From contig NZ_CP097332.1 in the NCBI RefSeq assembly GCF_023516435.1, positions 2,046,001 through 2,110,000 on the forward strand: a stretch of DNA of 64,000 nucleotides. Reading direction: 5' to 3'. Below the pieces are notes generated by a model. That model searched no databases and was not told where the DNA came from. It worked only from the letters and a program-made list of their open reading frames with translations. The stretch is from Jatrophihabitans telluris. Lineage in GTDB: Bacteria; Actinomycetota; Actinomycetes; Mycobacteriales; Jatrophihabitantaceae. Both the position numbers and the translations under genes were made by a program. This document shows, in pieces, positions 2,446 to 53,518 of the stretch; position 1 is the first letter of the stretch, and each line of letters starts with the position of its first letter.

Positions 2446-3294
2446 TCAGGCCGTGGCCTGTACGGCGCGGCGCGTGAGCACGGCCGCGAGGTGCTCGCGG
2501 TAGTCGGCCGCTCCGGCGAGGTCGCTCGGCGCTGCTGTGCCGTGCACCGCGTGCGCGCTGGCCGCCGCGATCTCGCCGTCGGTGCTCGCCCCGACCAGGG
2601 CCTGCTCCACCGCGCGGGCCCGCAACGGCGTGCTGCCCATGTTCGTCAGCCCGATCCGCGCTTCGCTGATCGCACCGCCAGAGCGCCGGACCACGGCCGC
2701 GACGCTGACGATCGACCAGGCCTGCGCTACCCGATTGAACTTCTCGTAGTGGGTGCTCCACTCCGAACCCAGCTTCGGGATCCGGATCGCCGTCAGGATC
2801 TCGTCGGGTCCCAGAGCGGTGGTCAGATAGTCGAGGAAGAAGTCGCTGGCTTCGATCACCCTCTGCCCGGCGGGGCCTTCGACGACGAGTCGGGCGTCGA
2901 GCGTCAGGGCCACCGTCGGCAGGTCCCCGGCCGGATCGGCGTGGGACAGCGATCCGCCGAACGTGCCGAGATGGCGCACCTGCGGATCGGCGACGGTCTT
3001 GGTCGCCTGCGCGAGCAACGGGGCGTGCTGGCGGACCAGCGCGTCGTGCAGGATGTCGTCGTGAGTGGTCATGGACCCGATGACGATGTCGTCGCCGTCC
3101 TCCCGGACGCCGCGCAGGTCGTCGATGCCGCCGAGGTCGACCAGAAGTTCGGGGTAGGCCAGTCGAAGGCGCAGGATCGGCAACAGTGACTGGCCGCCGG
3201 CGAGGAGCTTGGCGTCCTCGCCGCCCTCGGCCAGGACACGGGTGGCCTCACCGATAGTCGTCGGCCGGACGTAGTCGAACGCCGCGGGGATCAC
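2446..3294 (-). CDS. coxM: CoxM-like FAD subunit
   Basis: A 282-residue FAD-binding subunit of a molybdenum hydroxylase. It passes electrons from the iron-sulfur subunit to an acceptor. The N-terminus [25 protein letters not shown], the LLAGGQSLLP loop (about 31-40) and the second FAD motif LGTFGGSLSHADPAGD (about 103-118) are standard for the CoxM/xanthine dehydrogenase FAD family. The CODH FAD-interaction region is followed by the CO_deh_flav_C domain. The start is GTG 3294, overlapping the coxL stop by 4 bases (GTGA). Length is normal. With CoxL and CoxS it should form the usual dimer of heterotrimers in the cytoplasm. Confidence 0.92.
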   Translation of the reverse strand: MIPAAFDYVRPTTIGEATRVLAEGGEDAKLLAGGQSLLPILRLRLAYPELLVDLGGIDDLRGVREDGDDIVIGSMTTHDDILHDALVRQHAPLLAQATKTVADPQVRHLGTFGGSLSHADPAGDLPTVALTLDARLVVEGPAGQRVIEASDFFLDYLTTALGPDEILTAIRIPKLGSEWSTHYEKFNRVAQAWSIVSVAAVVRRSGGAISEARIGLTNMGSTPLRARAVEQALVGASTDGEIAAASAHAVHGTAAPSDLAGAADYREHLAAVLTRRAVQATA

Positions 3295-17595: not shown

Positions 17596-17745
17596 GAACG
17601 GGCGCGGGAGTCAGTCGGCAGGTCCGTCAGCGGAGGCCACCGACCAAGCCGCACGCGCTCCGGATGCGGGATTGGGCACAAAGTGACAGGCTGATCACGG
17701 ATCGTCAGATTCAGACAAGCGTGACACTTGGTCGGAGGTGCGGTT

Positions 17746-18999
17746 TTGGGCGCCCTTTCCCTCGACACGTCCGAGACATGCGGCGGAGCCGGCGACTCGG
17801 TTCGTCGACCGGACGAGCTGGATGAGCAGATCGAGCGGCTGCTGCACACCGCGCGCGTGCATCTGGACATGGACGTGGCCTGGGTGACGCAGTTCATCGC
17901 GGGCGACCAGATCGTCCGGGTGATCAGCGGCGCGGCCGACTCCCTGCCTGTTCGGCCGGGCAGCGTGGTACCGCTGGAGCACACGTTCTGCGTCCGGGTC
18001 GTGTCCGAGGTACTTCCCAACGCGATTCCGGACGCCCGAACGCACCCGCTCACCCGCGATCTGACCATCACCGGGGCGCAGGCGATCGGTGCCTACATCG
18101 GTGTGCCGTTGCGAGAGGCAAGCGGCGAACCCATGGGGATGCTCTGTTGTCTGGCCGGGACCGCCCGACCGGCCCTGAACCAGGATTCCGTCCACTTTCT
18201 CGAACTCATGGCGCAGTTGATCAGCGGCTTCGTGCACGGTGAGCGCATACCGCGCCATCTGGTCAGCGCGCCGGACGAGGCCGCGGCTGTGCGGGAGATC
18301 GTGCGCAGTCAGGACCTACGGATGGTGTTCCAGCCGGTCGTGCGGCTACGGGACAATCATGCCGTCGCGTTCGAGGCGCTGGCCCGTTTCGACGGTGACC
18401 TTTTCGCAAGCCCTGCCCACGCCTTCGCGGCCGCGCACCGGATCGGTCTCGGATCGGAGCTGGAGCAGTTGGCGATCGATCGCGCGATCTCGGACTGTCA
18501 CGACCTGCCTGAAGACAGCCGGCTCACCGTGAACGTCAGCGCTGAGGCACTGGTTCAGCCGCGGGTGCAGGAGGCCGTGCTCGGCCGGTTGAGTTGCGGG
18601 CTGACCGTCGAACTCACCGAGCACACCGAGATCCACGACTACGATCGGGTACGCGACGCGATCGGGCGTCTGCGGGGCGCGGGGGTGGCCCTTGCCGTCG
18701 ACGACGCAGGCGCCGGGTTCGCGAGCCTGCGCCACATCCTGCAGTTGCGCCCCGACGTGATCAAGCTCGATATCGACATCACGCGTGATGTGGACACCGA
18801 TCCGTACCGCCACTCCCTGACCCGTTCGCTCGCGGGATTCGCCCGTGACATCGGCGCGATGCTGGTCGCCGAAGGCGTGCAGACGCCGGCTGAGCACCGG
18901 TGTCTGATCGAGCTGGAGGTCGAATACGCCCAGGGTTTCTACTACGGACGCCCCGAACCGGCCCAGGCCTGGCGGACCGGCGACCTGCAGCTCATCTAG
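17746..18999 (+). CDS. GAF-EAL c-di-GMP phosphodiesterase
   Basis: About 417 residues. I choose TTG 17746 because GGAGGT (17734-17739) lies 6 bases before it; an in-frame TTG at 17728 has no such site. A GAF domain (about 25-165: VPLEHTFCVRVVSEVLPNAIPDARTHPL, AYIGVPLREASGEPMGMLCCLAG) precedes an EAL domain (about 180-415). Active-site residues are present: EAL in VAFEALARF, Asn in VNVSAEAL, Glu in ELTEH, the DD pair in AVDDAGAGFASL, Lys in VIKLD, and Glu in VAEGV. It should hydrolyse c-di-GMP to pGpG, with the GAF domain sensing an unknown ligand. Cytoplasmic, single gene. Confidence 0.9.
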   Translation: MGALSLDTSETCGGAGDSVRRPDELDEQIERLLHTARVHLDMDVAWVTQFIAGDQIVRVISGAADSLPVRPGSVVPLEHTFCVRVVSEVLPNAIPDARTHPLTRDLTITGAQAIGAYIGVPLREASGEPMGMLCCLAGTARPALNQDSVHFLELMAQLISGFVHGERIPRHLVSAPDEAAAVREIVRSQDLRMVFQPVVRLRDNHAVAFEALARFDGDLFASPAHAFAAAHRIGLGSELEQLAIDRAISDCHDLPEDSRLTVNVSAEALVQPRVQEAVLGRLSCGLTVELTEHTEIHDYDRVRDAIGRLRGAGVALAVDDAGAGFASLRHILQLRPDVIKLDIDITRDVDTDPYRHSLTRSLAGFARDIGAMLVAEGVQTPAEHRCLIELEVEYAQGFYYGRPEPAQAWRTGDLQLI

Positions 19000-32876: not shown

Positions 32877-35533
32877 CAACGCCGGCCTCCGGCGGGTGGG
32901 TGCGTGAGCACTTGGGTATCGAGCTCACCGACACGCCCGGACGGACGGGTCTGACCGTGACCGAGCTAGCGGGAATCGCCCTGCGGCGCAACCGGAAACG
33001 AGCCCAGCTGCTGGTCTCCTCCGTCCTCGGCAAGCACTGCCCGACCGACCCTCGAATCGTCTATGGCGCCGGTCTGTTGCTCGGGGAGCTGGTCACCGGT
33101 TGCCTCGCGACGGGCGAGGAAGCAACGAGGGCAACCTCAACGATGCGGGGCGAGCAACATGGGCAACGTCAACGCGAGGGCGGCGAACTGTTGAGACGCG
33201 GGTTGGCCGGTGACGCGCAAGCGGCCCAGCAGTTGCTCGACCGCTGCTCGCCGGCCAGTGTCGGAGGCAGCCACCCAGGGGTGCTGGTCCTGGGTTACGC
33301 CGAGACCGCAACCGGTCTCGGGCACGCCGTGGCCGACGCACTGGGCTGCACCTACCTGCACTCGACCCGCCGGCACGTTCCCGGAAGCCCGCCGACCGGT
33401 GGGTTCAGCGAAGAACACTCCCACGCTACCGAGCACCTGCTCGTGCCCGAAGACGTCCGGATGGTCGAGGCCGCCGCGACCATCGTGTTGGTCGACGACG
33501 AACTCTCGACCGGTCGGACGGTTCGCAATACGATCGCGGCCCTGCAGGCCACCGCGCCGCGCGCTCGCTACGTCATCGCCAGCCTCATCGACCTGCGGCC
33601 ACCGGCAGAGCAGGAGGAACTGCAGCGGTTCGCACGCGAGCAGAACACCCAGATCCAGGCCGTCGCGCTGGCCGGCGGCCGGATCGAGCTGCCCGGTGGC
33701 CTGGACGAATCCGCCGCGACGGTCATCAGCGCGCTCGATGACCGAACGACCCCCGTGCCTGATCCAGGCGCCCCGGCCGGTTCGAGCTCGACCCCGAGCG
33801 TCGCCGGCACGCTCGACCGCGTCCTGTCCGAGGCGTGGCCGGCCGGCGTACGGGAAGGAGGCCGGCACGGTTTCGATCCGGGCGATCGACCGGCCCTGCT
33901 CGCTGCGGCCGAACGCTGCGCCCGGGCCCTGGTAGGTGACGGGCCGGCTGATCGGGTGCTCGTGCTGGGCACCGAGGAACTGATGTACGCCCCGATGCAG
34001 ATCGCCCTTGCCCTGCAGCGGATCTGCCCGCAATCGACGGTCCGGTACTCGACGACGACGCGGTCACCGGTGCTCGCGGTCGACGATGCGCGCTACCCGA
34101 TCCGCACGGCTATCAGCTTTCCCGCCTTCGACCGTCCCGTCGAAGGACCGGCTGCCCGGTTCGCCTACAACGTCGCGGCCGGACAGGATCGCGCTGACCG
34201 TTTCGACCGCGTGATCCTGGTGACCGACGACGAGACCGATTCCGTTCTGCTCGCGGCGCCGGGCGGCCTGCTGGACCAGCTGCGCCACTGCGTCGGACGG
34301 GTGAGTCCGGTGCGGATTCCCGCGCACCGCCCGCGTCGCAGCCCGCTGCGTGGACCACGGTTCGGCAGCTATCCCGCTGAGGAGGTGGCCTGGCTGCTGC
34401 AGGATCTGTCGGCGGTGGACCTGGAGGCGCCGACGGAGGAACGCGAAGAGGCCATCCAGGGCGGGGGAGCCCACTACGCCGAGTCCTTGCCGATCGAGTA
34501 TCAGCCGAGTCCGGAATACCAACGGCTCTACGAGCAGGCGGTCAGCGCCTCGTCCCTGCGGGTGGCGCACGCGGTGGGCATCGTGACCGAGCGCGTGCTC
34601 GCCGCCCGGGGTCCCCACGCGGTGTTGGTATCGCTCGCGCGCGCCGGTACGCCGGTAGGAGTGCTCATGCGGCGCTGGGCCCGGTGGCGTCACGGACTCG
34701 AGCTGGACCACTACGCCGTGAGCATCGTCCGCGGCCGCGGAATCGACGCCAGCGCACTGGCCTTCCTCGCCCGCCATCACGATCCTCGCTCGGTCATGTT
34801 CGTCGACGGCTGGACGGGCAAGGGTGCGATCGCGAGGGAACTGGCCGCGGCCGTCGCCCGAGCCAACGATCCGTCTGGACCTGTGGGGCTCGGGGATTCA
34901 CCGGCCGTTCGTTTCGAGGGTTTCTCCGGTGAGCTCGCCGTGCTGGCCGACACTGGATCGTGCGTGCGCATCTTCGGTACCCGCGACGATTTCCTGATTC
35001 CGTCGGCCTGCCTGAACTCGACGGTGTCGGGTTTGGTCTCGCGCACGGTGCTCAACGACGAGCTGATCGGCTCGGGCGAACTGCACGGGGCGAAGTTCTA
35101 TCGCGAACTGGCGCCCGTGGACGTCTCCGGTCACTTCGTCGATGCGGTGTCGGCTCGCTTTGCCGAAGTCGGCGCCGGCGTCGACCGCGAGGTGTGCGAT
35201 CAGCTGGCCGGCCGGGTGGACACCGAACCGACCTGGGCCGGCTGGCGCGCGGTCGAGGCCCTGTCCGAGGAATACGGCATCCACCAGGTGAATCTGGTCA
35301 AGCCGGGTGTCGGGGAGACCACCAGAGTGCTGTTGCGCAGGGTTCCCTGGCGGATCCTGGTCCGGCCGTCGGCGCTGACCGAACTCGCCCACGTGCTGTT
35401 GCTGGCCGAACAGCGGGGGGTGCCGATCGAGGAGCGAGCCGACCTTCCCTACAGCTGCGTCGGCCTGATCCACCCGCGCTACACCCGAAGCGCGGTCGGC
35501 GCCGACGGCGTCTCGGCGGGAGCTCCCGCATGA
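32873..35533 (+). CDS. PRTase-TRSP-StiP-PELOTA fusion protein
   Basis: An 886-residue multidomain protein from GTG 32873. (1) About 130-310: a phosphoribosyltransferase domain with the PRPP loop IVLVDDELSTGRT at 204-216. (2) About 345-480: a TRSP domain named for its TRSP motif, here at residues 396-399 (YSTTTRSPVLAVDDA). (3) About 540-750: a StiP/PRTase-like domain with FVDGWTGKGAI at 643-653 and the conserved Cys in PSACLNSTVSGLV. (4) About 801-875: a PELOTA-type RNA-binding domain (YGIHQVNLVKPGVGETTRVLLRRVPWRILV). These modules are the predicted core of the Ter-linked nucleoside-like pathway; in some other genomes they are separate proteins. Confidence 0.85.
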   Translation: MTTPASGGWVREHLGIELTDTPGRTGLTVTELAGIALRRNRKRAQLLVSSVLGKHCPTDPRIVYGAGLLLGELVTGCLATGEEATRATSTMRGEQHGQRQREGGELLRRGLAGDAQAAQQLLDRCSPASVGGSHPGVLVLGYAETATGLGHAVADALGCTYLHSTRRHVPGSPPTGGFSEEHSHATEHLLVPEDVRMVEAAATIVLVDDELSTGRTVRNTIAALQATAPRARYVIASLIDLRPPAEQEELQRFAREQNTQIQAVALAGGRIELPGGLDESAATVISALDDRTTPVPDPGAPAGSSSTPSVAGTLDRVLSEAWPAGVREGGRHGFDPGDRPALLAAAERCARALVGDGPADRVLVLGTEELMYAPMQIALALQRICPQSTVRYSTTTRSPVLAVDDARYPIRTAISFPAFDRPVEGPAARFAYNVAAGQDRADRFDRVILVTDDETDSVLLAAPGGLLDQLRHCVGRVSPVRIPAHRPRRSPLRGPRFGSYPAEEVAWLLQDLSAVDLEAPTEEREEAIQGGGAHYAESLPIEYQPSPEYQRLYEQAVSASSLRVAHAVGIVTERVLAARGPHAVLVSLARAGTPVGVLMRRWARWRHGLELDHYAVSIVRGRGIDASALAFLARHHDPRSVMFVDGWTGKGAIARELAAAVARANDPSGPVGLGDSPAVRFEGFSGELAVLADTGSCVRIFGTRDDFLIPSACLNSTVSGLVSRTVLNDELIGSGELHGAKFYRELAPVDVSGHFVDAVSARFAEVGAGVDREVCDQLAGRVDTEPTWAGWRAVEALSEEYGIHQVNLVKPGVGETTRVLLRRVPWRILVRPSALTELAHVLLLAEQRGVPIEERADLPYSCVGLIHPRYTRSAVGADGVSAGAPA

Positions 35534-36371: not shown

Positions 36372-37538
36372 TCAGCAGCGTTGACCGGCGGCAGCACCCG
36401 TGACCGCCGCACCCGTGACCGCCGCACCCCCTCCGATCCCGAGGCCCGACAGCGAGGTGCGTAAGGCCTGGACCGAGGCCGGGTTCTTGTCGATGCGGTA
36501 GTAACCGGTGGCGCCGGTGGTTTCCGGGGTGGTGTCGTAGTACACGAAGCCCCGGATGCGTGGATTCGCCGCCATGAACGGTCCGAGCTGCGCCAACCAC
36601 GACGCCTGCTCGCTGCCCTCGACGCCGATCTCGGCGAGCAACAACGGCCGCGTGGACAGATGTTGCAGGGCGGCCACGGTGGGGCAGTAGGTCGACGCGA
36701 CCGAGTCACCGTGGCTGTAGCCGCTGAGCCCGACCAGATCGACGTAGTCGTCACCGGGGTACAGCCCGGCCAACCTGGGCGCTCCCTTGGGTGTGCCGGC
36801 GAAGATGTTCGGCGCCCAGACCCAGGAGGTGCGCTGACCGAGGATCGGCGCGATCAGATCGTGGACATGACGCCAGGCCGCGATGTACTGCCCGGCCTGG
36901 TTACCGTTGACCGCCTGGGCCCACGGGTACCAGGCACCGTTCATCTCGTGCGCGAAACGCAGGTACAGGGGACGCTGGGCCGCGGCCAGCTCGGAGCCCA
37001 CCGCGCGAAGCTGGGCGTCGAACGTGCCCGAGCTCAATGCGGCCAGCGTGTAGCGGGATTGCTGCGCATCTCCCCAGCGGCTGTGCTGTGACCACGGTTC
37101 GAGGCTGACCATGGGCGTTACGCCGGCCGGGACGGCGGCCAAAGCGGCGGTGATGCCAGGCGAATCAAGCTTGATGAACACCGAGCTGACAGTCGGCGGG
37201 GTGCCGACCGACTTCGCGAACTCGGTGAAGGCGGCCGCCGAGCCGTTGGGTACATCCAACCCGTAGAAGCGGGGTATCGGGGTCGCCGGCTTCGGTCTCA
37301 TCGCGTTCACCGCGAACCCGGCCACAACCAGCAGAGACAGCACCGCTGCGACGAGGGCGCACCACGCCGGCCATCGTCGCCCACCGCCCGACCGGTCAAT
37401 TGCGGAGCTGCCGGAACCCCTGCGGCCGGAACCCCTGCGGCCGGAACCCCTGCGGCCAGAACCCCTGCTGCCCGGCCCTGTCGTGAGCTGCTCGCGGCCG
37501 ACCGACGTGCCGACGTCCGGGTGCGCGGTAGCGGTCAC
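36372..37538 (-). CDS. Membrane-anchored GH26-like glycosidase
   Basis: A 388-residue protein from GTG 37538, overlapping the glycosyltransferase stop by 4 bases. Residues 1-45 are cytoplasmic and contain GSGRR units from a 15-bp repeat; WPAWCALVAAVLSLLVVAGF is a single membrane anchor. The outer domain is GH26-like (mannanase/beta-glucanase clan A): LYLRFAHEMNGAWYPW gives the acid/base Glu and LLLAEIGVEG the nucleophile Glu, with YPGDDYVDLVGLSGY between. The C-terminal AVTGAAVTGAA comes from another short repeat. It probably trims or releases the polysaccharide made by the adjacent synthase. Confidence 0.87.
   Translation of the reverse strand: MTATAHPDVGTSVGREQLTTGPGSRGSGRRGSGRRGSGRRGSGSSAIDRSGGGRRWPAWCALVAAVLSLLVVAGFAVNAMRPKPATPIPRFYGLDVPNGSAAAFTEFAKSVGTPPTVSSVFIKLDSPGITAALAAVPAGVTPMVSLEPWSQHSRWGDAQQSRYTLAALSSGTFDAQLRAVGSELAAAQRPLYLRFAHEMNGAWYPWAQAVNGNQAGQYIAAWRHVHDLIAPILGQRTSWVWAPNIFAGTPKGAPRLAGLYPGDDYVDLVGLSGYSHGDSVASTYCPTVAALQHLSTRPLLLAEIGVEGSEQASWLAQLGPFMAANPRIRGFVYYDTTPETTGATGYYRIDKNPASVQALRTSLSGLGIGGGAAVTGAAVTGAAAGQRC
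36395..36424 (-). repeat. 2 x 15-bp repeat at GH26 3' end
   Basis: Two identical copies of CACCCGTGACCGCCG (36395-36409 and 36410-36424). They encode the Ala-Val-Thr-Gly-Ala tail of the GH26-like protein and preserve its frame. Confidence 0.8.
37411..37470 (-). repeat. 4 x 15-bp in-frame tandem repeat
   Basis: Three exact copies of CCGGAACCCCTGCGG (37411-37455) and a fourth differing at two bases (37456-37470). Read on the minus strand they encode Gly-Ser-Gly-Arg-Arg units in the cytoplasmic segment before the membrane anchor. Confidence 0.9.
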
Positions 37539-39238
37539 CGTCGCGCCAATGCGGGATCGGCGGCCGTCGATGCGGCAACCGACACCGACACCGGGCGCGG
37601 AGCCGACACCCGGCGGGGCGGGCGGTACGCCGCAACGGTCGGGACGCGAACGGCGTCGCCGCGCTCGGTGCCGGCGGCCTTCTTCGCCTTCGCGGGGCGG
37701 GCCGATGCGCGCATGAACAACATCGGAATCTGCAGGTAGGCCGACACCAGCGCGAAGCAGAGCATCGCCCAGGTGTGTCCGATGCCGTACTCGAGCGTGG
37801 CGCGCGTGATCGCGGTCCAGAGCAACGCCTGGGTGATGAACACCGTCACCCTCATGACGCGGGAAATGGTCAGTGCCAGCGGGGTCTTCTTGGTGTTCGC
37901 GGTTCCGGTCGCGACCCATTCCTTGGTCCGGCCGGTGAGGATGTGGACGATCGCGACGGCGTGCGCGAAGGAGTACAGCTGCTGGACCCGCAACACGTCC
38001 AGACGCCAGTTGCTCTTCATCATTGTAGGCAGGATGAAGTACCACAGGGCGATCGCGCCGAGCAGCCATACCGTGTTGTGCGGGAAGATGTGCTGGGGGA
38101 AGAAGAACAGCATGATCAGACCTGGTAAAGGCGCGACGAAGATGTTCACCGCAGTGCTGATGTAGTACATGAATCCCGACCAGAAGCACAGCCGCTGACG
38201 GACGGAGAAGATCGGATTCTTGTGGAAGCTGCGGTCGGCCAGCAGCGACATCGATCCGGTGCACCAGCGGTACTGCTGGTTGAGGAAACCGAGCAGCGAA
38301 TCCGGGCACAACCCTTTGCTCACCAGGATGGGGACGTAGCGCAGATGGAAGCCGGCCTTCATGAGCTTGACCCCGGTGTGGACGTCCTCACTGTGACCGA
38401 TCTGGGCGAAGCCTCCGGCCTGTTGCAGGGCCGAACGCCGGTAGATCGCGCACGTGCCGACACAGATCGCGGCCTTCGAGCGATCCCGGGAGGGCTGGAT
38501 GAAGCGGTAGAAGAGCTCCTGCGTCGCACCGGCGCAGCGCTGTAGCCAGTTCATCCGCCTGTCGGTGTCGAAGAACTGGGGGGTCTGGACGATGCCCACG
38601 GTCGGGTCACCGAAGTAGGGCACGGTTTCGTGGAGGTAGTCGAAACGCGGAACGAAGTCGGCGTCGAAGATGCAGATCAGGTCGCCGGAGGATCGTTCGT
38701 ACATGTACTTCAACGCCCCGGCCTTCTTGAGCTCACCCCGGTTCGGGCGCACGAGATAGTCGAAGCCGTAGGCCTGCGCCAGCTCTCGCACTTCCTCGCG
38801 CGCGGCATCGTCGTGCACGATGACCCGCACTGTGGTGTACCAGTCGAGGTCGGCGACGTAGCGATAGGTGTTGTCGAGAACCTCCAACGGCTCACCGGCC
38901 GTCGGGAGGAAGACGTCGACCGTCGGCGCATCGGTGCCGTCGTACTCGAGCACCCGTAACTCGTGGTCGAGGCGAGAGGTGCGCTTCTTCCGCCCGCTGG
39001 ACAGCAGCGACATCACGGATGTGCCGGTGTACAGGGTCGCCGGCGCCAGGAAGAACCACAGGGCCGGCCGGGTCAGGGCGAAGCGGCTGATGCTGAACAC
39101 GACGAGCCCGAGGGCCAGGGCCTGGACGAGGAGCAGCCAGCGGTGCTGGCGTCCCATGTACCAGTACTTCTCCTCGTCGGTGGGCGGACTGGGCAGGCTG
39201 AGGTCAGGACCGGATTTGCGCAGCGACATCAGAGTCAT
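37535..39238 (-). CDS. BcsA-like processive glycosyltransferase
   Basis: A 567-residue family 2 polysaccharide synthase with membrane segments at about 33-75 and at least four more after residue 340. The catalytic signature is complete: VDVFLPTAGEP, substrate DAD in ICIFDADFVPR, catalytic Asp in GHSEDVHTG, and QxxRW in NQQYRWCTG. The gating-loop region and C-terminal tail resemble cellulose synthase-like proteins, but no PilZ domain is seen, so it is probably not directly switched by c-di-GMP. ATG 39238 lies 6 bases after the preceding GH26 stop. The glucan or mannan product is unknown. Confidence 0.92.
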   Translation of the reverse strand: MTLMSLRKSGPDLSLPSPPTDEEKYWYMGRQHRWLLLVQALALGLVVFSISRFALTRPALWFFLAPATLYTGTSVMSLLSSGRKKRTSRLDHELRVLEYDGTDAPTVDVFLPTAGEPLEVLDNTYRYVADLDWYTTVRVIVHDDAAREEVRELAQAYGFDYLVRPNRGELKKAGALKYMYERSSGDLICIFDADFVPRFDYLHETVPYFGDPTVGIVQTPQFFDTDRRMNWLQRCAGATQELFYRFIQPSRDRSKAAICVGTCAIYRRSALQQAGGFAQIGHSEDVHTGVKLMKAGFHLRYVPILVSKGLCPDSLLGFLNQQYRWCTGSMSLLADRSFHKNPIFSVRQRLCFWSGFMYYISTAVNIFVAPLPGLIMLFFFPQHIFPHNTVWLLGAIALWYFILPTMMKSNWRLDVLRVQQLYSFAHAVAIVHILTGRTKEWVATGTANTKKTPLALTISRVMRVTVFITQALLWTAITRATLEYGIGHTWAMLCFALVSAYLQIPMLFMRASARPAKAKKAAGTERGDAVRVPTVAAYRPPRRVSAPRPVSVSVAASTAADPALARR

Positions 39239-39244
39239 TGGCGA

Positions 39245-40918
39245 TCACCCACGTGAGGAGGGGGTTGCGGACGGACGTGCGGACGGAACTGGTACCGACT
39301 GAGCTGTGGTGAACGATGTGAGGACTGCGGCCGGGGCCACGTGGTTCGACGTGGTCGGACTCGCGCCACGGGTTGAACTCGGACTCGCGCCACCGGTTGA
39401 ACTCGGACTCGCGCCACCGGTCGTGCTCGGGCTTGCGCTGCTGGTGGTCGTGGGACTCGCGCTGGGAACGGTGGTGACCAGGATGGGCTTTTTGCCGTGG
39501 TCACGGCCGAACCCGGTGGCATACAGACCGGTCCGGAAGGCCTTCGTGACGTCGCTGCTGGACTGGATTCGCCAGTCGTTGGTGGTGCCGGAGGCTGTGA
39601 CGGCGTAGTTGAACCAGACGAATCCGATCACGTCCGGATTCGCCTGGAGCCCGCTGAAGAAGGTGCTGACCCACGCCAGCTTGTGCCCTCCGGACTCGGT
39701 CGCCCCGGCCTCGGCGATGAGGATCGGCTTGCTGGGGGCGACGCGACGCAGTTCGGCCAGAGTGGCGTTGTAGGTGGACGCGAAGGTGGGGCTGGAGTCG
39801 CCGGGCCGGTAGTAGCCGGTCATGCCCACCCAGTCGACGTAATCGTCGCCGGGGTAGTAGTTGTCGATGGAGGCGTATCGGCGGATGTTGTCGATCCGGT
39901 TCGGGGCCCAGTCCCAGACCACCAGGTTGTTGGCGCCCTCGGCCTGGAAGATGTCATGCACATGGCGCCAGGCGGCGATGAACGAGCCCTTCGGATTGTT
40001 GAACGTCGCGTTGGATTCCGCCCAGCGGTACCAGTTGCCGTTCATTTCCTGATCGAAGCGGATCACCAGCGGAAGACCGTTGGCGACGATGTCGTCGGCG
40101 TAGGCCTTCAGATACGTGTCGAAGCCGCCCGCAACGATGTTGGGCAAGGAGTAGTCGGTGCTGGTCACTGCGTCGTTGAGCGGCCGGGATTCCCAGGTCA
40201 GGAAGGGAATCTCGCCGGCCGCCCAGGCCGAGTTGACCGCCTCGGCGCGAAAGTCGCTGTCAAAGCCCTGGAAGTAACCGTGCATGGTGGTGTCTCGGGC
40301 CAGGGTCGACTCGACGTTGTTGTACTCCTCCTGGGTTCCCGCGTAGAGGCCGAAGTGCTGGCGGGAGGCGAGGATGGTGGCCTTGCTCGGGGCGGTCGGT
40401 TTGGTCGGGCCGGACGGGATCGGCGGCGCGGTGCTGGGCGCGCTCGGCTCTTGGGACGCCGCCTGCGAGTTCTGCGCGACAACGGTCGCGGCCGCGGGCG
40501 TGACGTAGGCGGTGGCGTTGGTAGAGACCGTAACGGTGGGCCGTGGCTTTCCGCTCGGGTGGGCGTTCGACTTCAGCTGTTCGCACACCACGCCGTTGTG
40601 GTTGCCGTCCCAGGAGGGGTACGTCGTCCGGTGAGCATTCCAGAACTGCTGCGCGGCCTGCTGGTTCGGAAACGCGCTGCAGTCCTTGTGACTGCTGTTA
40701 CTGACCGTGATAGACGTTGCCGATGAGGTAGGTGCCGCGGACGGGCTGGCGTGCTGGGACAGCTGCTGGGCGAGCTGGCTGTTCTCCGACTGCAGCTGGG
40801 CGATCCGATGATCCGGGCCGAATCGAATATCCAGCGTTCGATAGGTGAAAGCACCCACCACGGTGAGGGCCACGAGCGCGGTCGCGTAGCGTTCGGGGCG
40901 CTTGCTGAGGTCGGGCAT
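39245..40918 (-). CDS. GH26-like protein with excalibur-type domain
   Basis: A 557-residue protein from ATG 40918 (MPDLSKRPERYATALV). One membrane segment (about 12-27) is followed by a short coiled coil (RIAQLQSENSQLAQQLSQ). An excalibur-like calcium-binding motif comes next (DCSAF...WDGNHNGVVCEQL). After a Pro/Ser/Thr linker comes a GH26 domain with RFDQEMNGNWYRW (acid/base) and ILIAEAGATE (nucleophile). The C-terminal SPSSTGGASP-type repeats may be glycosylated. It is probably extracytoplasmic and acts on the operon's polysaccharide. An alternative start at 40957 would add 13 residues. Confidence 0.86.
   Translation of the reverse strand: MPDLSKRPERYATALVALTVVGAFTYRTLDIRFGPDHRIAQLQSENSQLAQQLSQHASPSAAPTSSATSITVSNSSHKDCSAFPNQQAAQQFWNAHRTTYPSWDGNHNGVVCEQLKSNAHPSGKPRPTVTVSTNATAYVTPAAATVVAQNSQAASQEPSAPSTAPPIPSGPTKPTAPSKATILASRQHFGLYAGTQEEYNNVESTLARDTTMHGYFQGFDSDFRAEAVNSAWAAGEIPFLTWESRPLNDAVTSTDYSLPNIVAGGFDTYLKAYADDIVANGLPLVIRFDQEMNGNWYRWAESNATFNNPKGSFIAAWRHVHDIFQAEGANNLVVWDWAPNRIDNIRRYASIDNYYPGDDYVDWVGMTGYYRPGDSSPTFASTYNATLAELRRVAPSKPILIAEAGATESGGHKLAWVSTFFSGLQANPDVIGFVWFNYAVTASGTTNDWRIQSSSDVTKAFRTGLYATGFGRDHGKKPILVTTVPSASPTTTSSASPSTTGGASPSSTGGASPSSTRGASPTTSNHVAPAAVLTSFTTAQSVPVPSARPSATPSSRG
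39357..39428 (-). repeat. 3 x 24-bp in-frame tandem repeat
   Basis: Three head-to-tail copies of a 24-base unit containing GGACTCGCGCCAC (39357, 39381, 39405). On the minus strand they encode Ser/Gly/Ala/Pro/Thr units in the C-terminal tail of the GH26-like protein. Frame is kept whatever the copy number. Confidence 0.85.
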
Positions 40919-40988
40919 ATGCGGGGTGCTCCAAGCCGGTGCGGAGAGTGGCAACAAGAATTCGTCACTGAGCGTGGCAGGAGTCTAT

Positions 40989-41017
40989 TAACTCTGTGTG
41001 ACTAGATGTACACAGAG
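40989..41017. promoter_or_regulatory. BldD-box-like palindrome upstream of EPS operon
   Basis: The 13 bases at 40989-41001 (TAACTCTGTGTGA) match every fixed position of the Streptomyces BldD consensus TnACnC(A/T)GnGTnA. An overlapping larger inverted repeat pairs CTCTGTGT (40992-40999) with ACACAGAG (41010-41017) around a 10-base loop. It lies 71 bases upstream of the GH26-GT2-GH26 operon start, in an AT-richer island, where an operator is expected. BldD binds DNA as a dimer when loaded with c-di-GMP. No BldD gene is in the window, so this is a candidate. Confidence 0.5.
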
Positions 41018-41140
41018 AGTTGCCAGAGGAGCGACCATCTCGTGCTGATTTGGACACTCTCGGCCGGATTTGGACGCACGTGTTTCTTCTCTCGCCGCGA
41101 AAACCTCAGGTTCCGCTGCGCCGTGCCGAGACGATCAAGA

Positions 41141-50110: not shown

Positions 50111-51757
50111 TTACCGCGGCTGGATGTGGGCGACGATATAGGCCAGACCGGACTCGTCGTCGGTGACGATCGAGGCGAGCACGCGGACCGGTAACGCGGA
50201 TCCGTCTGCGTGCAGGTAACGCTTGTCGACCGACACCCGCCGCACGGTCCCGTCGAGGAGATCCTGGGTGTTGGCGACATCGGCGCCACGATCGTCCGGG
50301 TGGGTGAGCTCGGAGACCCGCGAGCCGAGGATCTGGCTGCGGGTGTACCCCAGCAACTCGGCCAGTGCGTGGTTGACGTCGAGGAAGGTCCCGTCGAGCC
50401 GGTTGATCGCCATGCCGATCGGCGCACCGTCGAAGGCCTCACGGAACTTCGCCTCGCTCTCGGTCACCGCACGTTGTGCCTCCACCGCGGCCGTGACGTC
50501 GCGGGCGATCAGCAGGATGTCGCCGCCGTCCCGGCTGACCGACTGTGCCTTGGAATCGAGCCAACGGTGGGAGCCGTCCTTGTGGCGCAGCTTGTACTGG
50601 CCGTTGCCGAGTTCGCCCGGCGCAGCGCTGCCCGGCCCGGCGCTGCCCGGCGCTGGTTGGCTCAGCTGCGAGGACTCCAGAAAATCGGCCACCGACTGAC
50701 CGATCGCCTCACTCGGCGCGTAGCCGAGCATCGCCTTGGCCGAGGCCGAGATGTAGCGGATCGTGTAGTCGGACGTGGCGACGATGATCAGCTCCTCGGT
50801 ACCGCCGAGGACGAGCTTGGGTTCGATCGACTCGTCGACGCGCACCTGCCCGAGGCGGTTGCCCAGTCGCGCGAGCAGCGCGTGCGAGGCTGGTTCCGGC
50901 TTTCCGAACAACCAGCCCTGGGCACTGTCGGCGCCCATCGCGATCAGCTGCCGGGCTTGCTCCTCGTCCTCGACCCCTTCGGCGCACACGCGCAGGCCCA
51001 GGCTGTGGGCGGTGTCGATGATGAGGCGTACGAGCACCGCGTCCAGCGCGTCGGCGGTGATCCGGTCGACGAAGGAGCGGTCGATCTTGACGATGTCGAA
51101 AGGCAACCGGCGCAGCATCGTGATGGACGAATGCCCGGTGCCGTAGTCGTCGAGTGCGAGCCGAACCCCGAGAGCCTTGAGGCCCTTCAGCCGCTGCGCG
51201 CACTGTTCGAGGTTCGCGATCGCGGCGGTCTCGGTCACCTCCAGGCAGAGCCGATCCGGTCGCAGACCTGACACCGCGAGAGCGTGCCGGACGTCCTCGA
51301 CGACGGTGGCGTCATCCAACTGAACGGCCGAGAGGTTCACTGTGACGGTAGGGAGTCTGCCGTCGACATCGGCGAGCCAGCCGGTGGCTTCCAGGCAGGC
51401 CCGCAGCATGACCCAGCGCCCCAGCCGACCGATCAGCCCCTCCGCCTCGGCCACGGCGATGAACTCATCAGGAGGCACGATGCCGAGCTCGGCGTCGGTC
51501 CAGCGGGCCAGGGCTTCGGCACCGATGACGCGGGTGGACGGAAGCTCGACCAGAGGCTGGTAACTGACGGTCAGCTCGTCGCAGTCCAGAGCTCTGCGCA
51601 GCCGCGCCGCCATGACGTCGCGGGCGGAGGGCAGGGCGAAGCGGTTGAAGCCGATCGCCGGGGCCGCTGGACCTGGTGGCCACGGCGACTCCTCACCCGC
51701 GGGTCCTGGCAAGGCCGAGCGTTCGGGCTCAGGCCTGGCTGTTGCTGGATTTGACAC
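50111..51757 (-). CDS. EAL-PAS-PAS c-di-GMP phosphodiesterase
   Basis: A 548-residue cytoplasmic protein. I use GTG 51757 because AAAGG lies 7 bases before it; TTG 51763 is too close to that site. The EAL domain (about 45-300) has intact residues: EAL in IGAEALARW, Asn in VNLSAVQL, Glu in LEVTETAAI, DD in ALDDYGTGHSSI, Lys in IVKIDRSF, Glu in CAEGVEDEEQ. Two PAS domains follow (TIRYISASAKAMLGY and FREAFDGAPIGMAINRLDGTFLDVN). EAL ahead of PAS is less common than the reverse. It probably degrades c-di-GMP in response to a PAS signal. It follows the GGDEF gene by 15 bases. Confidence 0.92.
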   Translation of the reverse strand: MSNPATARPEPERSALPGPAGEESPWPPGPAAPAIGFNRFALPSARDVMAARLRRALDCDELTVSYQPLVELPSTRVIGAEALARWTDAELGIVPPDEFIAVAEAEGLIGRLGRWVMLRACLEATGWLADVDGRLPTVTVNLSAVQLDDATVVEDVRHALAVSGLRPDRLCLEVTETAAIANLEQCAQRLKGLKALGVRLALDDYGTGHSSITMLRRLPFDIVKIDRSFVDRITADALDAVLVRLIIDTAHSLGLRVCAEGVEDEEQARQLIAMGADSAQGWLFGKPEPASHALLARLGNRLGQVRVDESIEPKLVLGGTEELIIVATSDYTIRYISASAKAMLGYAPSEAIGQSVADFLESSQLSQPAPGSAGPGSAAPGELGNGQYKLRHKDGSHRWLDSKAQSVSRDGGDILLIARDVTAAVEAQRAVTESEAKFREAFDGAPIGMAINRLDGTFLDVNHALAELLGYTRSQILGSRVSELTHPDDRGADVANTQDLLDGTVRRVSVDKRYLHADGSALPVRVLASIVTDDESGLAYIVAHIQPR

Positions 51758-51772
51758 CGACAAACCTTTCGA

Positions 51773-53518
51773 TCACCGCTTCGGATCGGCAGGTTCAGAA
51801 GCTTCCTGAATCTCTGGACGTTCATTCAACCATCCAGCGGGCGCAATGGCCGGACGCGCGGTCTCGGAGGCGATCTGGTTGCGGCCGGAATCCTTCGCCC
51901 GGTACAGCTGGCGATCCGCGGCGTAGACAGCCTCGGTGTAGGTGTCGTGGACGTCGGGGCTGAGCCCGATGCTCACCGTCACGGTCAGCCCCGGCGCAAT
52001 CGTCGACCACTCCTCGTCCTGCACGCGGCGTCGAAGTCGCTCGCAGATCCGCCACGCGGTGTCGGTGTCGACGTCGAGCATCGCCACCAGGAACTCCTCG
52101 CCGCCGTAGCGGGCGATCAGGTCATCGGGACGGCACACCGCGCGCAGCAGCTCGGCGATACGCACCAGGACCCGGTCGCCGGAGGGGTGCCCGAGCGAAT
52201 CGTTGACCTGCTTGAAGTGATCGAGATCCAGCAGCGCGATCCAGAGCGAACTCTTCTGTGAATGTGCCTGCTGGTGCATGGCGGGCAGCGCCAGGTCCAG
52301 GTAGCGGCGGTTGGCCAGCCCGGTGAGCGCGTCGGTCTGAGCGTGGCGCTCCAAGGTCGCCGTCTGCTCCAGCAAGGCCTGCTTGTCCTGCAGCAGCCGC
52401 TCGTTTCGGGCGAGCGCGTCGGCGGCCTCGTTGCGGGCCTGTTCGAGCTGGGCCTGGTGGGCCAACAGCCGTGCCCGGGTCGAAGCGCGACCGTGACGAA
52501 GCTGTTTCTCGGCGTCGTGAAAGGAACGAAAGCACGCCAGCGCCTTGCGTAGTTCACCGTTGCGCTCGTAGAGGGCGGCGAGTTCCTCGAGGACGTCGAC
52601 CTGTACCAGCAACTCGCCGAGTTCGACCGACTCGGCCAGCACGTCGGTGAGCAGTTCGATGGCGTCGTCCAACCGCCCCTGGTCCAGCAGCGCGGCGGGC
52701 ATGTGCTGACGCGCCGACATCTGTAAGGGCCGGTAGTCGTGCTTGACCGCGAGTTCGTGGGACTTCTCCAGCGTCGCCAGGGCTTGCTCGGCGGCCCCGG
52801 ACAGCTGCTGGATCGCGCCGAGATTGCCCAGGCTCAGGCACAGCTCGTAGCAGCGGTCCTGGATCTCGCAGTAGGTCACGGCCTCGGCGGCGTGCTCCAG
52901 CGACTCGGCCAGGACACCGGCGGCTTCGTCCTCGCGCCCCGCACCGCGAAGTTCGGGTACCAGCGACATCGCGTTGTTGACCAGGTTGGTGAGAATCGAC
53001 CACCGGCCCTGCTTGTCGACCGCGTCGGAAAACGACAGTGCGTATTTCAACAGATCACGGGCCGACTCGTGCTCACCGAATGAGTCGTAGGCGAACCCGG
53101 TGCGGTTGTGTACCCAGAACAACAGTTCGCGATGGCGCAGGGCCTGGGCGATCGTGCGCGCCGAAGTGAGCAGCTCCATGGCTTCCTCACCCAGGCCCAG
53201 CCCGGTCAGCGCGAAAGCCTGAGCGATGGCCAGCTCGCACCAGATTTCATCGGCATCGTGTTCGCGCAAAAGCTCTCGGCCGTCCTCGCAGGCGGCAATG
53301 GCTTGTTCGAGGTCGCCGGACCAGGTGAGCAGGCGAGCACGTTCGCGCAGCACTCTGGCCTGACCAACGGCGTCACCGGCTGCCGCGGCGCGAGGTTCGG
53401 CGAGGTCGCACAGACTCAGGCCGGAACGGAAGTCGCCGCGACCGGCCGCTTCGTGGATCTCCGACATCAGCGTCGCCAGATCCGCGCCAAAGAGTGGCTG
53501 GTCCCCGACCGCTGCCAT
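51773..53518 (-). CDS. TPR-GGDEF diguanylate cyclase
   Basis: A 581-residue protein from ATG 53518; GGGAGG lies 8 bases upstream, better than the GTG at 53524. Residues 15-330 form a helical TPR array (ALACFRSFHDAEKQLRHG at its end), then a coiled coil (LARNERLLQDKQALLEQTATLERHAQ) as linker. The GGDEF domain has the active site RYGGEEF and, five residues upstream, RPDD, a feedback-inhibition I-site. It should make c-di-GMP and be limited by product. It shares a transcript with the EAL-PAS gene, so synthesis and degradation are encoded together. Confidence 0.92.
   Translation of the reverse strand: MAAVGDQPLFGADLATLMSEIHEAAGRGDFRSGLSLCDLAEPRAAAAGDAVGQARVLRERARLLTWSGDLEQAIAACEDGRELLREHDADEIWCELAIAQAFALTGLGLGEEAMELLTSARTIAQALRHRELLFWVHNRTGFAYDSFGEHESARDLLKYALSFSDAVDKQGRWSILTNLVNNAMSLVPELRGAGREDEAAGVLAESLEHAAEAVTYCEIQDRCYELCLSLGNLGAIQQLSGAAEQALATLEKSHELAVKHDYRPLQMSARQHMPAALLDQGRLDDAIELLTDVLAESVELGELLVQVDVLEELAALYERNGELRKALACFRSFHDAEKQLRHGRASTRARLLAHQAQLEQARNEAADALARNERLLQDKQALLEQTATLERHAQTDALTGLANRRYLDLALPAMHQQAHSQKSSLWIALLDLDHFKQVNDSLGHPSGDRVLVRIAELLRAVCRPDDLIARYGGEEFLVAMLDVDTDTAWRICERLRRRVQDEEWSTIAPGLTVTVSIGLSPDVHDTYTEAVYAADRQLYRAKDSGRNQIASETARPAIAPAGWLNERPEIQEASEPADPKR

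Follow-up and report, generated by a model that had tools for sequence, protein, structure and literature searches.

The segment at 40965-41022 of the window (the whole 64-kb stretch of DNA that was analysed) is probably a BldD operator, through which BldD-(c-di-GMP) would repress a GH26-GT2-GH26 operon. BldD binding, its dependence on c-di-GMP, the promoter elements and repression rather than activation were all inferred from sequence, and the product of the operon is presumably an exopolysaccharide.

The box and its surroundings

The genes of the operon and the sites around its promoter are listed below by window coordinates. Features without orientation are given as unstranded.

36372-37343, minus strand: second GH26 gene, start uncertain
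37535-39238, minus strand: GT2 gene, cellulose-synthase-like, QQYRW motif seen by eye
39245-40918, minus strand: GH26 gene, first of the operon, N-terminal hydrophobic stretch seen by eye
40698-40710, unstranded: perfect TNAC(N)5GTNA inside the first GH26 gene, rank 2 in the window with the full matrix
40965-40977, unstranded: third box-like site, TCACTGAGCGTGG, one mismatch, 24 bp to the gene side of the main box
40985-40990, minus strand: putative -10 element TAATAG, assigned by eye, overlapping the main box by two bases
40989-41001, unstranded: main BldD box, TAACTCTGTGTGA (operon strand TCACACAGAGTTA), a pattern match and the top matrix site, half-sites kept in the orthologous locus L008
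40990-41021, unstranded: larger inverted repeat, from a repeat search
41007-41012, minus strand: possible -35 element TGTACA (TTGCCA in L008), assigned by eye, with a 16-nt spacer and a weak match to the consensus
41010-41022, minus strand: degenerate second box, CAACTCTCTGTGT, two mismatches to TNAC(N)5GTNA, 21 bp upstream of the main box

The main box fits TNACNCNGNGTNA, which we take to be a stricter form of the BldD consensus. It also matches the consensus that PMC4151990 gives, TNAC(N)5GTNA. The initial annotation had described a site fitting the BldD consensus within a larger inverted repeat ahead of the operon; the fit was confirmed at 40989-41001, as was the repeat, and the box lies 70 bp upstream of the first GH26 ATG at 40918. 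The arms of the repeat (40990-41000 and 41011-41021) are 91% complementary over 11 nt, with a perfect core of 8 bp (40992-40999 and 41010-41017). The repeat is probably the main box plus the degenerate second box, 21 bp apart, and not a separate operator. An RNA hairpin or terminator was also considered and was rejected, although folding of the repeat beats shuffles (z about -2.5), because the repeat lies upstream of the likely transcription start, no terminator-like site was found by scan, and the window gave no match to an Rfam family.

The first GH26 protein gave a weak Excalibur match (19.5 bits against a cut-off of 22). Near the operon, at 32900-35533, a StiP / PRTase_2 / TRSP / PELOTA fusion protein is encoded.

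Frequency of box matches

The window contains two matches to the strict pattern where 0.74 are expected, and 17 of 100 shuffles reach at least two. A single strict match is within chance for 64 kb, so the case for a BldD operator rests on further tests. Genome-wide, 15 strict matches were obtained against 9 for the reversed control, and 211 loose matches against 151, a modest excess. Strict boxes were not significantly enriched between genes (6 of 15 versus 2 of 9 control sites, Fisher P = 0.33), and in the window and nine control loci, loose boxes and controls were intergenic equally often (six each). Gene calls for these counts were made with our own codon-usage script and no published gene finder. 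In one sample, 11 of the 20 stretches had been chosen for listed box sites, and these were kept out of the rates. Among the first 100 of the 211 loose sites there were five adjacent pairs at most 75 bp apart (0.37 expected); the first 100 of the 151 control sites held one adjacent pair, 10 bp apart.

A matrix from bldD promoters

In this genus, bldD promoters contain two box-like sites, 52 bp apart in five of eight genomes (G000, G010, G011, G013 and G008), and these stand out as conserved blocks, e.g. CTGTTACGCTGTGTGGTCTAA. Both sites have one mismatch in G000, the genome of the window. A symmetric matrix was built from 20 sites in 14 of 20 bldD-like loci, hand-picked at no more than one mismatch, with none contributed by the polysaccharide locus. 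Left out were further one-mismatch matches in the same promoters, the loci L088-L090, L092 and L094 (no perfect box), and L091, which the script could not read.

The matrix puts 40989 first of all positions in the 64 kb, with a score of 15.4 versus 12.7 for the next, a ranking that is not fully independent because the sites were selected with the same consensus. In 100 shuffles of the window, five had a site scoring as well, an expectation of 0.05 per window. Position 40989 was still first when the matrix was restricted to genus sites or to non-genus sites, and when the sites of G000 and G008 were removed. Three of the top four matrix sites (40989, 40698 and 40965) fall within 300 bp, for which P is about 3e-4 under uniform placement; the site at 40965, ranked fourth, has no counterpart at this place in L008.

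The regulator

Absence of bldD from the genome would have counted against the initial annotation, and a gene of the BldD family whose product has the c-di-GMP signature was found. The genome is a single contig of 4.19 Mb. The BldD-family protein that it encodes is, over residues 3-154, 66% identical to the query sequence taken as S. coelicolor BldD, and its two halves match the solved chains 2ewt (E = 3.6e-30, residues 35-103) and 4oaz (E = 7e-24), which we take to be structures of BldD. In the DNA-binding domain, KAVVVGSYERGDRAV is identical to 2ewt. The c-di-GMP signature RXD-X8-RXXD appears as RGD-X8-RGED in RGDYGNKVLSIRGED. The neighbouring genes, named by eye from their translations, are efp, nusB and pyrR, presumably the same order as around bldD in Streptomyces. 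Local synteny is kept by bldD orthologs (PMC4255298), and the neighbours here agree with this. The NCBIfam equivalog NF050110 scored 236.8 bits (E = 8.9e-71), 13 bits below its cut-off of 250, and for this reason the protein is called a BldD-family member and a probable ortholog of BldD. A BldD match was obtained in 19 of 24 genomes of the family.

Conservation of the operon promoter

GT2 orthologs were sought in the 24 family genomes at E<=1e-80, with at most three candidates scored per genome, and two genomes had one: the window's own and G008, on the same contig as L008. L008 is a contig of a same-genus MAG, 'Frankiales bacterium isolate RYN_134', on which the gene order is GH26-GT2-UDP-glucose-dehydrogenase-like-GH26 (dehydrogenase named by eye). 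The gene upstream of the L008 operon, LysR-like by eye, differs from that in the window.

A single block of 46 bp around the box, CCTCTGGCAACT...GTCACACAGAGTTAATAGA, is common to the two promoters, and none of 2000 shuffles reached its local score. In L008 the main box, TCACGCTCAGTTA at 3189-3201, fits TNAC(N)5GTNA and misses the stricter consensus at one place. The second box, TAACTTTCAGTTG, has one mismatch there against two in the window and lies at the same 21-bp offset. Further perfect boxes were found at 3257 and at 3050; the second of these is still within the preceding gene, right at its end. Given how often boxes occur between genes in the genome of the window, the two perfect boxes in the 198 bp before the L008 operon have P = 0.0013. 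When the 11.7 kb of L008 were scanned with the matrix, the top site was elsewhere (11441), and all four next-ranked sites were at the operon promoter.

The initial annotation had suggested a search for the same box before homologous operons. Within the genus it was conserved at the one orthologous promoter of one (L008), and outside the genus a perfect box preceded an operon gene in 3 of 15 GT2 loci (L050, L056 and L058, among L009-L011 and L050-L061, the GT2/GH26 loci examined). The genomes of these three loci all have a BldD homolog, as do 10 of the 12 genomes of L050-L061, with L009-L011 outside this count. As proof of an old link, the box at other GT2/GH26 clusters was not convincing, 3 of 15 being about chance level. 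A 55-bp promoter block was not shared at the other loci (25-28 of 55 positions identical).

GT2, GH26 and UDP-glucose-dehydrogenase-like genes recur together across families of the order (L008, L050-L052 and L054-L056), hinting at a polysaccharide that contains uronic acid. The window operon has no UDP-glucose-dehydrogenase-like gene between GT2 and the second GH26 gene.

Conservation of the block may in part be conservation of a promoter, since the block also holds the likely -10 element. That the block is the core promoter of the operon and nothing more, perhaps for another sigma factor, with the box assembled from promoter letters and chance, is nevertheless unlikely. Such a promoter would explain why the -10 candidate is kept in both sequences (GTTAATAGA) and why AAC-N16-GTC, ECF-type-like by eye, is conserved as well, and the match in one genome is within chance; but 40989 has the highest score in 64 kb with the matrix of bldD-promoter sites, the left half-site TCAC is conserved though it lies outside the -10, and extra box-like sites cluster in the promoters of both the window and L008.

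Predicted direction of control

The main BldD box probably overlaps the -10 element of the operon promoter, and the second box would overlap the likely -35; a scan for sigma-70-type promoters found none and did not report the putative -10 of the operon. High c-di-GMP would dimerise BldD, and the dimer would occupy the main box at 40989-41001, aided by the weaker sites 21 bp upstream and 24 bp downstream. Bound in this way, BldD would cover the -10 and probably the -35 region, so that RNA polymerase would be blocked and the operon repressed. When c-di-GMP falls, BldD would leave, allowing synthesis of both GH26 proteins and of the cellulose-synthase-like GT2. With the main box over the probable -10, repression by BldD-(c-di-GMP) is predicted, and hence polysaccharide at low c-di-GMP.

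The opposite arrangement, in which BldD binds here and activates, and c-di-GMP raises polysaccharide as in most bacteria, seems quite unlikely to us. It would follow the usual c-di-GMP logic, whereas a main box over the likely -10 and a second box over the likely -35 favour occlusion. Streptomyces BldD targets are repressed at high c-di-GMP (PMC4151990, PMC8325347), and repression is what PMC4151990 and PMC4255298 describe for the known developmental targets, which argues against activation here. BldD overexpression also raises some genes in S. clavuligerus (PMC13102240), which argues for it, and repression is therefore not certain.

It is improbable that a different dimeric repressor, of the MarR or TetR type and independent of c-di-GMP, uses the inverted repeat as its operator: perfect 8-bp arms with a 10-bp gap are an ordinary operator shape, but in L008 the long repeat is not conserved and TAACT/AGTTA alone is left, so that the short box half-sites are kept where the repeat is lost, and no regulator gene adjoins the operon among the genes scanned.

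c-di-GMP genes

The three c-di-GMP enzymes that had been reported were all recovered.

17746-18999, plus strand: GAF-EAL gene
50111-51613, minus strand: EAL-PAS gene
51773-53518, minus strand: TPR-GGDEF gene

With 33 GGDEF and 27 EAL matches in 4.19 Mb, the genome of the window is rich in c-di-GMP genes for an actinobacterium, and because of this number three such enzymes in 64 kb mean little. The claim that c-di-GMP switches the operon at transcription stands on the likely BldD operator, as indicated by the regulator, the matrix rank, the half-sites in L008 and the clusters of boxes, and draws no evidence from the nearby c-di-GMP enzymes. The GT2 protein has no PilZ domain at E<=0.001, which agrees with the description of a synthase without one. 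As an argument for a transcriptional switch this is weak, as the search covered the GT2 protein itself.

Two box-like sites, at 17695-17707 and 17722-17734 (27 bp apart), lie just before the GAF-EAL phosphodiesterase gene. Elsewhere, a pair of perfect BldD boxes, 22 bp apart, stands ahead of a GGDEF-EAL gene (L066:4118-4152). Within the stretches examined, these were the only two c-di-GMP genes with a close upstream box, and no enrichment of such genes among those with boxes is claimed. Genes for secreted or wall-anchored proteins are also among those with close upstream boxes; at L109:2651-2684, two perfect boxes 21 bp apart lie 16 bp before the gene of a secreted CAP-domain protein.

A box at the flgB promoter

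A box at L071:4344-4356 (G000:C1:3662343-3662355) lies 85 bp before flgB-flgC-fliE-fliF and overlaps the -35 of a sigma-28-like promoter. The flagellar-type promoter is given as TAAA / GCCGATAA in PMC8325347. In the window's genome the flgB promoter looks sigma-28-like and the polysaccharide promoter does not. The sample of flgB promoters comprised 14 loci (L115-L128), in which one genus promoter was cut by a contig end and three non-genus promoters were not read by the script. Among the seven readable genus promoters, the box was perfect in four, had one mismatch in two and two mismatches in one; the three promoters read outside the genus had no site with one mismatch or fewer. The flgB box is a lead and not a result, as TTAACTC may be conserved for the sigma factor.

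It is doubtful, though conceivable, that BldD-(c-di-GMP) acts as a lifestyle switch of the genus that represses the polysaccharide and flgB-flgC-fliE-fliF operons together. If it did, low c-di-GMP would open polysaccharide and motility at the same time, against their textbook opposition.

Relation to known systems

Post-translational control by c-di-GMP through a PilZ domain is the case for the cellulose synthase BcsA. The GT2 of the window is related to cellulose synthase; it differs in that no PilZ domain was found, and control is proposed at transcription. A likeness to the Streptomyces BldD-(c-di-GMP) regulon (den Hengst 2010, as cited in PMC4151990 and PMC4255298) is seen in the box TNAC(N)5GTNA and in a BldD-family protein with RXD-X8-RXXD (PMC4151990, PMC4255298), and also in the box-like sites of the bldD promoter and the boxes before some c-di-GMP enzyme genes. 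Unlike in that regulon, the proposed target here is a polysaccharide operon of the order GH26-GT2-GH26, and the genome that carries it is not from Streptomyces and has a flagellar operon. The RsiG-(c-di-GMP)-WhiG switch (PMC8325347) is alike in that c-di-GMP acts on transcription in actinobacteria, and unlike in that a sigma/anti-sigma pair is used there and an operator here.

Among the papers listed in our searches, none dealt with flagella or a polysaccharide operon under the control of BldD. The GH26-GT2-GH26 operon is likely a new target of a known regulator and not a new kind of system.

In Streptomyces, BldD is a brake on sporulation. If the GH26-GT2-GH26 operon is under BldD, direct control of transcription by c-di-GMP would extend to a surface polysaccharide, and this in an actinobacterium that has many c-di-GMP genes. 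The prediction, polysaccharide made when c-di-GMP is low, would be the reverse of the usual rule.
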